Origin: Paraburkholderia sprentiae WSM5005
GTDB taxonomy: Bacteria; Pseudomonadota; Gammaproteobacteria; Burkholderiales; Burkholderiaceae
Direction of reading: 5' to 3'
NCBI RefSeq assembly: GCF_001865575.2
Contig: NZ_CP017561.2
Span: 3,294,001 to 3,358,000, forward strand
Length of the DNA stretch: 64,000 nt
Shown here: in pieces, positions 21,727-64,000 of the stretch
Layout of the letters: every line of letters starts with the position of its first letter
Numbering within the stretch: position 1 is the stretch's first letter
Notes under the pieces: model-generated
Told to the model about the DNA's origin: nothing
The model's database searches: none
The model's input: the letters and a program-made list of their open reading frames with translations, nothing else
Program-made: the position numbers and the translations under genes

Positions 21727-22389
21727 ATGCCCTTCCTGCTCCACGAATCCCGCTTCTATACCACCGTCAATCATCTGCGTGATCTGCCGGCCACTGCGCA
21801 GCCCGAGATCGCTTTCGCGGGACGCTCCAACGCGGGCAAGTCGACCGCGATCAACGTGCTCTGCAATCAGAAGCGACTTGCGTTCGCGAGTAAGACGCCC
21901 GGCCGCACGCAGCACATCAATTATTTTTCAGTCGGCAAGGCAGATGAGCCGACAGCGTATCTGGTCGACCTGCCGGGCTACGGTTATGCGGAAGTGCCCG
22001 GAGCGGCGAAGGCGCACTGGGAAGCGCTGCTGTCCACGTATCTGCAATCGCGCTCGCAACTGCGCGGCATGATCCTGATGATGGATTCGCGCCGCCCGCT
22101 GACCGATCTCGATCGACGCATGATCGAGTGGTTCGCGCCGACCGGCAAGCCGATCCACACGCTGCTCACCAAATGCGACAAATTGACGCGCCAGGAAAGC
22201 ACGAACGCGTTGCGCACCGCGCAGAAGGGACTGGCCGAATATCGGGCCGCGGGCTATCGCGGCGAACTCACCGCGCAGCTCTTTTCGGCGCTCAAGCGAA
22301 CGGGGCTCGACGAGGCGCACGAACTGATCGAGAACTGGTTGATCCCGGAGGCAGCGGGCGAAGCAGGCGACGCACCGGCCGCCGGTTGA
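21727..22389 (+). CDS. engB: Ribosome-biogenesis GTPase EngB (YihA/YsxC)
   Basis: A 220-residue Era-type GTPase needed for large ribosomal subunit assembly. The G motifs are readable: G1 [10 protein letters not shown]2 region [13 protein letters not shown]3 DLPGYG and G4 TKCDKL. The C-terminus ends in an Ala/Gly-rich tail. No strong Shine-Dalgarno precedes the ATG. It diverges from cytochrome c4; hemB follows after a gap that holds a minus-strand RNA candidate. Confidence 0.96.
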
Positions 22390-22469
22390 CCGCATCGCCG
22401 CGCCGGAATCCCGCAGTGCGCATGGATGCCTGTAATAAGACCCGCATCAAGGCACGTTTGCGGCCGCCC

Positions 22470-22580
22470 CATAAAAAAACCCGCCGCTTGAACGGCGGGC
22501 CAAACAGCCTAATCGAAAAACGACAGGCACCCGCTCAGGGAGGAGAAGCGGGGAGGTCAGCGCTAGGCGCCTTGCTCGAT
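22470..22580 (-). ncRNA. Candidate small RNA with anti-Shine-Dalgarno loop
   Basis: The minus strand from ~22580 to 22470 looks like a stand-alone transcript: a -10-like TATCAT (22585-22590), then a hairpin with stem CCCGCT/AGCGGG whose loop is TCTCCTCCCTG, a T-rich single-stranded stretch (CGTTTTTCGATT), and a classic terminator with seven T. The loop holds CCTCC, complementary to ribosome binding sites. No minus-strand protein gene lies just upstream that this terminator could serve: the nearest, dsbD, is already cut off by the hairpin at 23703. No known family could be assigned. The 5' end is an estimate. Confidence 0.6.
22471..22499 (-). terminator. Rho-independent terminator of the candidate small RNA
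   Basis: Minus strand: CCCGCCG (22493-22499) pairs with CGGCGGG (22480-22486) over a 6-base loop, then seven T. On the plus strand there is no T tract after the stem, so it is directional and cannot be the engB terminator. Confidence 0.85.
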
Positions 22581-22581
22581 C

Positions 22582-23668
<1,087 letters not shown>

Positions 23669-60051: not shown

Positions 60052-60127
60052 TGGCAGGGGCAGAGGGAATCGAACCCCCAACCTTCGGTTTTGGAGACCG
60101 ACGCTCTGCCAGTTGAGCTATACCCCT
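60052..60127 (-). tRNA. tRNA-Trp (anticodon CCA)
   Basis: A 76-base cloverleaf on the minus strand, beginning AGGGGTATAGCTC and ending CTGCCCCTGCCA with the CCA end encoded. The anticodon loop reads CTCCAAA, and the T arm GGTTCGATTCC is present. It lies between tuf and secE and probably shares their transcript, as in other proteobacteria. Confidence 0.96.
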
Positions 60128-60191
60128 AAACCATTTGGGGTTGACGACACCGCCAACCCCGCTACAACCGATTACCGAGAACTATCTGGCG

Positions 60192-61382
60192 TTACTCGAT
60201 GATCTTGGCGACGACACCCGCGCCGACCGTACGGCCACCTTCGCGAATTGCGAAACGCAGGCCTTCCTCCATCGCGATCGGGTTGATCAGCTTCACCGTG
60301 ATCGACACGTTGTCGCCCGGCATCACCATTTCCTTGTCCTTCGGCAGTTCGATCGAGCCCGTCACGTCCGTCGTACGGAAGTAGAACTGCGGACGGTAGT
60401 TGTTGAAGAACGGCGTATGACGGCCGCCTTCGTCCTTGCTCAGCACATACACTTCAGCCGTGAAGTGCGTGTGCGGGTTGATCGAACCCGGCTTGGCCAG
60501 AACCTGACCACGCTCCACGTCTTCACGCTTCGTGCCGCGCAGCAGGATACCCACGTTGTCGCCTGCCTGACCCTGGTCGAGCAGCTTGCGGAACATTTCC
60601 ACGCCCGTGCAGGTCGTCTTCACCGTCGGCTTGATACCGACGATTTCGATTTCTTCGCCAACCTTGACCACGCCACGCTCAACGCGGCCCGTCACCACCG
60701 TGCCACGACCCGAGATCGAAAACACGTCTTCCACCGGCATCAGGAACGAACCGTCAATCGCACGCTCCGGCGTGGGGATGTACGTGTCCAGTGCATCGGC
60801 CAGGCTCATGATCGCCACCTCGCCCAGCTCGCCCTTGTCGCCTTCCAGCGCCAGCTTGGCCGAACCCTTGATGATCGGCGTGTCGTCGCCCGGGAAGTCA
60901 TACTTCGACAGAAGCTCGCGAACCTCCATCTCGACCAGCTCGAGCAGCTCAGCGTCGTCCACCATGTCGCACTTGTTCAGGAACACGATGATGTACGGAA
61001 CGCCAACCTGACGCGCCAGCAGGATGTGCTCACGCGTTTGCGGCATCGGGCCGTCAGCAGCCGAGCACACCAGAATTGCGCCGTCCATCTGTGCCGCGCC
61101 CGTGATCATGTTCTTCACATAGTCAGCGTGACCCGGGCAGTCGACGTGTGCGTAGTGGCGGTTAGCCGTCTCGTACTCGACGTGCGCGGTGTTGATGGTA
61201 ATGCCGCGCGCCTTTTCTTCCGGCGCTGCGTCGATCTGGTCGTACGCCTTCGCTTCGCCGCCGAACTTCTGCGTCAGAACCGTCGTGATCGCTGCCGTCA
61301 GCGTGGTCTTGCCGTGGTCAACGTGACCGATCGTGCCCACGTTCACGTGCGGCTTGGTCCGCTCAAACTTACCCTTGGCCAT
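60192..61382 (-). CDS. tuf: Elongation factor Tu, copy upstream of secE
   Basis: The second 396-residue EF-Tu gene; its protein is identical to the str-operon copy. DNA identity starts exactly at the stop codon and ends within the first seven codons, where five synonymous differences cluster; one more synonymous difference lies at 60942 (Leu CTC versus CTG). Flanking DNA is unrelated. It follows tRNA-Thr after 62 bases and precedes tRNA-Trp, the classic tRNA-tufB arrangement. Confidence 0.98.
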
Positions 61383-61444
61383 TTTCGACTCCTAAGAGGA
61401 TTTTCCGTACGTTGCGCCGGGCGCAAACAATCACCGAGTACTTC

Positions 61445-61519
<75 letters not shown>

Positions 61520-61535
61520 GTTACTTCTGTGTTGC

Positions 61536-61609
61536 TGGAGCGGGTGAAGGGAATCGAACCCTCGTCGTAAGCTTGGAAGGCTTCTGCTCTACCATTGAGC
61601 TACACCCGC
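61536..61609 (-). tRNA. tRNA-Gly (anticodon TCC)
   Basis: A 74-base cloverleaf on the minus strand, beginning GCGGGTGTAGCTC, with anticodon loop CTTCCAA, T arm GGGTTCGATTCCC and an encoded CCA end. It lies 16 bases before tRNA-Thr. Confidence 0.95.
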
Positions 61610-61649
61610 AAGGATCATGGATTCCCAACAACTACTACAACTTGCATTC

Positions 61650-61735
61650 TGGTGGAGGAGGTTGGATTCGAACCAACGTAGGCGTAAGCCAACAGATTTA
61701 CAGTCTGCCCCCTTTAGCCACTCGGGCACCCCTCC
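61650..61735 (-). tRNA. tRNA-Tyr (anticodon GTA)
   Basis: An 86-base class II tRNA with a long variable arm on the minus strand, beginning GGAGGGGTGCCCG, anticodon loop CTGTAAA, T arm GGTTCGAATCC and an encoded CCA end. It is the first gene of the tRNA-tuf transcript; the promoter lies 15-43 bases upstream. Confidence 0.95.
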
Positions 61736-61749
61736 GCAGAGAACTGACG

Positions 61750-61778
61750 ATTATGGGGGAACAACATCCCTTTGTCAA
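61750..61778 (-). promoter_or_regulatory. Promoter of tRNA-Tyr-Gly-Thr-tuf
   Basis: On the minus strand a perfect TTGACA (61773-61778) and CATAAT (61750-61755) are exactly 17 bases apart. The start would fall near 61744, a few bases before tRNA-Tyr. This is the best consensus promoter in the window. Confidence 0.8.
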
Positions 61779-61847
61779 GACCACCTTAACCGTTCCGAAG
61801 ATTACGTTCTCACTTATATAGCGGATTACCGCCAGCTATCTGTAAAC

Positions 61848-61877
61848 GCAAAAACCCCACCGCGGGGGTGGGGTTTC
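61848..61877 (-). terminator. rRNA operon terminator
   Basis: A hairpin with arms AAACCCCAC / GTGGGGTTT, followed on the minus strand by TTTTTGCGTTT. It lies about 15 bases past the 5S rRNA and separates the rrn operon from the tRNA-tuf operon. Confidence 0.88.
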
Positions 61878-61891
61878 TGAGGTGCTGGGGA

Positions 61892-62006
61892 GCCTGACGA
61901 TTACCTACTTTCACACGGGCAATCCGCACTATCATCGGCGTGGAGTCGTTTCACGGTCCTGTTCGGGATGGGAAGGGGTGGGACCGACTCGCTATGGTCA
62001 TCAGGC
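61892..62006 (-). rRNA. 5S ribosomal RNA
   Basis: The minus strand begins GCCTGATGACC and ends AATCGTCAGGC, and these ends pair as helix I. The internal CCCATCCCGAACAGGACCGTG block is the conserved 5S core (loops B/C, given here in part). About 115 bases. Exact ends may differ by one or two bases. Confidence 0.93.
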
Positions 62007-62219
62007 ATGACGGGTTGCTGCGTCGCGGGGCTGGAGCCAGCCGGGCGCGCCACAGCCAATCGGGAAGAAGCGTAAGGGATTCGTGTGGGGGGTTGTGGTG
62101 TTTCTGGCACAACACCGGTCTCAACCGTGTGGGGTCTGCATAAGACCCTGCGCCTTGCGCAGGGTGGGGCATCCATGAGCGCTCAAGCGCTAACGGCTGC
62201 CGGCACACACCGGTTATAG
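62007..62219 (-). other. 23S-5S internal transcribed spacer
   Basis: About 213 bases with no tRNA. It holds a perfect 9-bp hairpin ACCCTGCGC/GCGCAGGGT with a 3-base loop (62145-62165) and an AGCGCT repeat nearby. These are probably processing structures of the precursor rRNA. Confidence 0.7.

Positions 62220-64000
<1,781 letters not shown>

Follow-up and report, generated by a model that had tools for sequence, protein, structure and literature searches.

The minus strand of the gap between engB and hemB in the window (the whole 64,000-nucleotide stretch of Paraburkholderia sprentiae WSM5005 DNA that was analysed) holds the gene of a small regulatory RNA that is already catalogued, as Rfam family RF02837 (anti-hemB). 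The sRNA itself is not new. Our analysis adds the near-invariance of its anti-Shine-Dalgarno hairpin (SL2), the sigma-E-type promoters of its relatives, its extent across the class and a probable link to ErsA, an envelope-stress sRNA of Pseudomonas. We consider it likely that the window RNA is an Hfq-dependent, trans-acting sRNA that masks ribosome binding sites, and that it is the family's form of an old sRNA beside engB of which ErsA is the probable Pseudomonas form.

The sRNA gene and its published counterparts

A scan against all Rfam families places RF02837 at 22554-22471 (-) with 79.4 bits against a cut-off of 49.5 (E = 5e-17); the whole model is matched, and the genome holds this one copy over the cut-off. 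The original prediction had proposed an sRNA in this gap and suggested an Rfam search; the search returns a known family, which had gone unrecognised at that stage, as had the sigma-E-type promoters of the relatives. Our own covariance models R1 and R2, described below, match at 22579-22472 (-). The RNA stands beside hemB and is convergent with engB, which is the placement of RF02837 (Table 1).

Table 1. The sRNA gene, its elements and its neighbours, in window positions
Feature	Position	Strand	Basis or remark
engB	21727..22389	+	ORF; convergent neighbour of the sRNA; anchor gene of the family
sRNA gene (RF02837 anti-hemB)	22473..22578	-	transcript of ~106 nt; ends inferred here
SL4, intrinsic terminator with seven T	22473..22501	-	terminator scan and fold; stem 22501-22478, T run 22479-22473
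SL3, hairpin GCCTGTCG/CGATTAGGC	22507..22528	-	fold
SL2, hairpin CCCGCT/AGCGGG with anti-Shine-Dalgarno loop TCTCCTCCCTG	22530..22552	-	sequence and fold; CCCGCT 22552-22547, loop TCTCCTCCCTG 22546-22536, AGCGGG 22535-22530
SL1, 5' hairpin GGCGC/GCGCU	22559..22571	-	fold; outside (upstream of) the Rfam model
-10-like box TATCAT	22585..22590	-	sequence; inside the block TGGTATAT(C/G)ATA
hemB	22634..23668	+	ORF; divergent neighbour of the sRNA; alternative start ATG 22670

The segment 22560-22471 folds at -38.2 kcal/mol, compared with -25.0 (sd 2.9) in 200 shuffles, none of which was as stable (z = -4.5; 0/200). SL4 was listed with 10 pairs by a terminator scan that returned 6 sites in 2.4 kb where 2.1 were expected. 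When the start is placed 7 nt after TATCAT, the RNA has 106 nt, in agreement with the length of the B. cenocepacia counterpart given below. RNA polymerase would start near 22578 from the TATCAT promoter and stop at SL4, which would give an independent transcript. By itself, however, the TATCAT box argues only weakly for a promoter, since a consensus promoter scan found no sigma-70 site at the window sRNA.

The minus-strand layout described in the original prediction, with a -10-like box, the CCCGCT/AGCGGG hairpin and its loop, and a terminator with seven T, is found in the sequence. It had been called complete, and to that extent it has to be extended by the 5' hairpin SL1, which had been missed. 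What had been described as a U-rich single-stranded segment is mostly the third hairpin, SL3, which covaries in relatives. Coding within the RNA appears unlikely because the minus-strand ORF at 22641-22447 starts upstream of the inferred RNA start and because the lengths of close relatives differ by single bases. Near the right end of the window, positions 60055-64000 (-) carry 23S (partial) and 5S rRNA genes and four tRNA genes.

The candidate has a measured counterpart in Burkholderia cenocepacia J2315, namely ncS04, for which PMC5688073 gives a length of 105 nt, a start by dRNA-Seq, a 3' end by RACE and, in its Table 1, the alternative name anti-hemB. Table 2 of the same paper lists no significant change of ncS04 in any of seven conditions, and a paper states that ncS04 binds Hfq. 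The name anti-hemB also appears in a table on B. pseudomallei (PMC3521395). A review (PMC6321483) mentions Bc7, an sRNA copurified with Hfq, and gives RybB as its homolog and hemB as a target predicted for it; Bc7 is probably the 'Burkholderia RNA 7' of Rfam, which is RF02837, and hence the same RNA as ncS04. The window RNA resembles the B. cenocepacia RNA in sequence, structure, length and, to judge by the name, in adjoining hemB. No difference of weight separates the two members of one family, and the Rfam model omits the 5' hairpin.

SL2 is nearly invariant in the order

RF02837 exceeds its cut-off in 245 of the 399 genomes sampled from the order and reaches E <= 0.001 in 299 of them (129 of 158 genera); in a set of 120 genomes of the window's family it exceeds the cut-off in 91. 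For comparison of loci we took the window copy, the 29 best other RF02837 matches and 40 picked for family diversity; since all of these 70 order loci are high-scoring, the fractions that follow describe this set and are not estimates for all genomes. Of the 69 loci from other genomes, 60 were seen to have engB, which is convergent with the sRNA in 54 of them and shares its strand in the other 6; hemB was found in 58, always on the opposite strand, and 3 have neither. In the six loci with engB and the sRNA on the same strand (L033, L048, L049, L051, L059, L064) hemB was not seen, as if the segment had been inverted; the three copies with neither engB nor hemB nearby are L062, L065 and L078. 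One genome of the order (G234) has six RF02837 matches.

A MAFFT alignment was made of 60 of the 70 loci. The other ten (L014, L017, L023, L028, L062, L065, L070, L078, L079, L085) were left out by eye before counting, as near-duplicates, for broken or N-bearing ends, for want of engB or as suspected extra copies. Across the 60 sequences, standard pairs fill 93.3% of the cells in the four-helix structure. Double-change cells number 97, where shuffles give 24.3 (sd 5.5), and the score for covariation reaches 0.261, as against at most 0.070 when the partners are slid. All 12 covarying pairs lie in SL1, SL3 and SL4, where double changes occur in 4/4, 4/5 and 4/5 pairs, respectively. It had been suggested that covariation be sought in both stems, SL2 and the terminator; the terminator covaries, and SL2 is nearly invariant, with four of its seven pairs never varying and 99.3% of its cells paired. 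Because SL2 hardly varies, these counts tell us little about whether it pairs, and the feature that is held is its sequence: CTCCCTGAGC, from the SL2 region, occurs in 69 of the 70 loci. The terminator hairpin has CCCCTT in 51 of the 64 order loci outside the window's family; this motif is absent in the window copy.

Copies in the wider class

R1, the covariance model built from the 60 aligned sequences, was run on a class sample of 369 genomes and at E <= 0.01 had matches in 151, of which 148 lie outside the order; the nine genomes matched at E <= 0.001 in a phylum sample of 249 all lie inside the class. From these matches we assembled 67 'gamma loci', by which we mean loci of the GTDB class Gammaproteobacteria outside the order Burkholderiales: 27 of 30 R1 loci (the window, L086 and L089 belong to the order and were set aside) and 40 picked from the upper part of the R1 match list. 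When 20 gamma loci were scanned with Rfam, 10 proved to contain RF02837 over its cut-off and none RF01719, the family of ErsA.

In the gamma loci, the engB gene was found in 46/67, convergent downstream of the sRNA in 45, and polA in 40/67, co-directional upstream in 39; hemB was seen in none of the 67 within flanks of ~1.5 kb. CTCCCT occurs in 64 of the 67 and the longer CTCCCTGAGC in 38. The original prediction had proposed conservation in relatives as a test, and by this test the anti-Shine-Dalgarno loop and its stem are kept far beyond the family. That this hairpin is nearly unchanged over two large lineages raises the question of which target set holds its sequence so constant. Several gamma loci have tandem copies of the sRNA, four in a row in L290 and others in L253, L265, L271, L098, L115 and L280.

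Relatives have a sigma-E-type promoter and the window's family a TATSAT box

In other families of the order the sRNA is preceded by GGAACTT-N-TCTTA/TCTGA/TCATA, which we take to be a promoter of the sigma-E (RpoE) class. An expression for this promoter matched 51 of the order loci (promoter counts of the order use all 70) and 81 of 7000 random windows from the same loci, and 48 of the 51 matches sit 42-52 nt before the Rfam start. It matched 39 of the 67 gamma loci and 77 of 6700 random windows, the background rate being 1.1-1.2% in order and gamma sets. Three order loci without a GGAACTT promoter match (L053, L054, L083) have in common a block TGTCTTGGACATA upstream, perhaps the site of another regulator.

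The window's family is different. Its six loci among the 70 comprise four without a match, the window (L001) included, and two that match only at odd places, -58 and -64. A further 48 loci of the family include one extra copy that scores under the cut-off (L245). In these 48, the sigma-E-type expression was found in two, both at an odd place, TATSAT in 42 and a block TGGTATATSATA in 36. A housekeeping-like promoter thus stands in the window copy in the place of the sigma-E-type one, which it would appear to have replaced. The unchanged levels of ncS04 in seven conditions fit a constitutive promoter.

These promoters also bear on whether the locus makes an sRNA of its own. The conserved segment could instead be no more than hairpins and a terminator that close a longer transcript, or it could be a sponge that binds a protein, and in neither case a base-pairing sRNA; the SL2 stem is as constant as the loop, as would be expected of a protein site, and the consensus scan found no promoter-like site. 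We regard this as very improbable, since 48 of the 70 loci have a promoter 42-52 nt ahead of the Rfam start, the independent start of ncS04 is mapped according to PMC5688073, Hfq binding is stated for ncS04, and the inferred window transcript has no GGA motif for proteins of the CsrA type.

Probable relation to ErsA of Pseudomonas

The gene order and promoter type of the relatives recall ErsA of P. aeruginosa, which is described as lying in 'the polA-engB intergenic region' under sigma-22 control (PMC8575079) and as 132 nt long (PMC5819304), and which, according to a review, represses algC together with Hfq by pairing to its ribosome binding site (PMC6321483). A search with EngB as query gave 80 named loci, mostly of Pseudomonas, P. 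aeruginosa itself not being among them. The promoter expression was found in 63 of the 80; the stretch considered ran from engB to polA, or 700 nt past engB in loci where no polA had been located. Rfam named the RNA there RF01719 (Pseudomon-1/ErsA) in all nine loci submitted.

R1 responds weakly to the ErsA loci (E 0.005 to 0.75). R2, a model from 78 gamma-locus matches with those of Pseudomonas excluded, scores 23.2-31.0 bits (E 3e-5 to 2e-3) on 55 Pseudomonas-type loci; the 66 R2 rows also held E. coli, members of further gamma groups and one additional match in L176, which were set aside. In a control on one genome, the window's own (7.84 Mb), the best off-target match of R2 has 24.2 bits and is a copy of RF02278, and the next has 22.5; 45 of the 55 ErsA-type loci score above 24.2 bits and 10 do not, and all 55 score above 22.5. 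The promoter expression lies 27-71 nt upstream of the R2 match in 55/55. Three loci from gammaproteobacterial MAGs (L182, L196, L197) look intermediate, L196 being itself in the training set of R2.

ErsA is like the window RNA in being convergent with engB, like most relatives of the window RNA in its C-rich terminator loop and its promoter of the sigma-E class, and like the B. cenocepacia counterpart in its association with Hfq, with pairing to a ribosome binding site reported for ErsA on algC. In contrast, neither the sigma-E-type promoter nor the C-rich terminator loop nor an adjoining polA is present at the window copy, and Pseudomonas ErsA lacks the CTCCCTGAGCGGG anti-Shine-Dalgarno hairpin (SL2). 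RF01719 has no match at the gathering score anywhere in the window, and over 22380-22720 it has none even when E values up to 1 are allowed; neither RF02837 nor RF01719 is assigned to a clan in Rfam. Taken together, the R2 scores, the gene order and the promoter type support, without proving, a common ancestry of RF02837 and ErsA, given that Pseudomonas has no SL2 sequence and that the control is one genome; the window RNA is probably homologous to ErsA.

It is also conceivable that ErsA is unrelated even where the homology within RF02837 is real. Different sRNAs could have settled repeatedly in a permissive gap beside engB, and the promoter could be common to both because sigma-E sRNAs are frequent. 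The missing anti-Shine-Dalgarno hairpin of ErsA and the weak response of R1 would agree with this, as would E. coli Spot 42, which occupies the same gap with another sequence. Against it stand the R2 matches, since a model from other gamma copies finds ErsA, the promoter type upstream in every one of the 55 places and the loci that look intermediate (with the reservation on L196 given above), and we find repeated settlement rather doubtful.

We lean towards common descent in a fuller form, in which RF02837 and RF01719 are the same gene. An anti-Shine-Dalgarno sRNA under sigma-E control would have arisen beside engB before Beta- and Gammaproteobacteria split and would belong to the core of the envelope-stress response throughout the class, with its pairing region remodelled in Pseudomonas and its link to sigma-E cut in Burkholderiaceae, the window included; Spot 42 may descend from it too, in the same place and altered even further. 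In the reading that we favour overall, the window gene is its family's form of the old engB-side sRNA, many other families of the order and class having the sigma-E-type promoter and ErsA being probably the Pseudomonas form. If ErsA is the counterpart, a sigma-E sRNA with a testable mechanism would be predicted for a great many beta- and gammaproteobacteria, and in the window's family the housekeeping-like copy would be an instance of promoter rewiring. Among the titles and abstract openings listed from the open-licence literature, none links anti-hemB to sigma-E or ErsA, and the link may be in print elsewhere.

Spot 42 and other sRNA families

The original prediction had pointed to an old sRNA site beside engB with Spot 42 (RF00021) as its example, while remarking that the sequence was not visibly Spot 42. 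The idea of an old site is well supported for ErsA, by the polA-engB gap, the promoter type and the R2 scores. For Spot 42 it holds in position: Spot 42 is likewise an sRNA convergent with engB (yihA) and of similar size (~110 nt), and the E. coli order polA-spf-yihA is that of the gamma loci. In sequence, R1 fails to find E. coli spf even with E values up to 1 allowed, the R2 match on the spf gene is no better than E = 0.33, and RF00021 has no match in the window, as the remark had implied, nor in any of the 369 class-sample genomes. We therefore rejected Spot 42 as a sequence relative, and the link is positional only.

Two further families were compared. RF02278, the Betaproteobacteria toxic sRNA (the double-hairpin RNAs ncS03, ncS05, ncS27 and ncS62), is like the window RNA in its terminator hairpin and in a CU-rich loop that is complementary to ribosome binding sites, as described for such RNAs in PMC5688073. 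The window locus, however, reaches only 17.1 bits against a cut-off of 50, and RF02278 has its own copies elsewhere in the genome, four over the cut-off (C1:3627509-3627571, C1:3390299-3390359, C1:3030163-3030223 and C5:61233-61291). Since the first of these is the best off-target match of R2, the two CU-loop families may be related. The suhB/mmgR family (RF00519) has an anti-Shine-Dalgarno loop and, like the window RNA, a CCUCCC stretch in its consensus, but it scores 16.8 bits against a cut-off of 41 and aligns to other parts of the RNA.

Mode of action and targets

How could so constant a hairpin act? SL2 would present UCUCCUCCCUG, which could pair with the purine-rich ribosome binding sites of target mRNAs and so block the initiation of translation. 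In our analysis, masking of ribosome binding sites in trans is the most likely mode of the window RNA, because the CCUCCC loop is exposed and Hfq binding is stated for the B. cenocepacia counterpart, as pairing to a ribosome binding site with Hfq is for ErsA.

The name anti-hemB suggests another mode, that of a cis regulator of hemB acting through overlap of the divergent transcripts or through pairing of the loop with the hemB leader. The neighbourhood would favour it (58 of the 69 order loci have hemB next to the sRNA and on the other strand), as would the review PMC6321483, which gives hemB as a predicted target of Bc7. Moreover, the loop pairs with GGGAGCGGAG, which precedes the alternative start TTG 22634, at an energy of -12.3 kcal/mol; among 2000 random windows, 1.3% do as well. 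No pairing was found, however, in the 40 nt before ATG 22670, and SL2 is kept in the six same-strand loci of the order and in the 67 gamma loci, in neither of which hemB was seen. Since copies without hemB nearby keep the loop, hemB alone cannot explain its conservation, and we consider control of hemB in cis improbable as the function of the RNA. The name is misleading in that copies without hemB nearby keep the same RNA. Under masking in trans, hemB could still be one target of the window RNA, through the modelled pairing with GGGAGCGGAG.

A single conserved target was sought by perfect complement to the loop and rejected. The 11-base complement before an ATG has one match in the window's own genome, and a search of 40 genomes for the 12-base complement before an ATG gave matches in 4, the own genome being among the 40 but not among the 4; one of these matches is the opposite strand of the sRNA gene itself. 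No shared target was seen among these matches, which were compared as sites and not as named genes. The sole site in the own genome, CAGGGAGGAGA before an ATG (L246), precedes an ORF of 102 aa at 1503-1195 (-).
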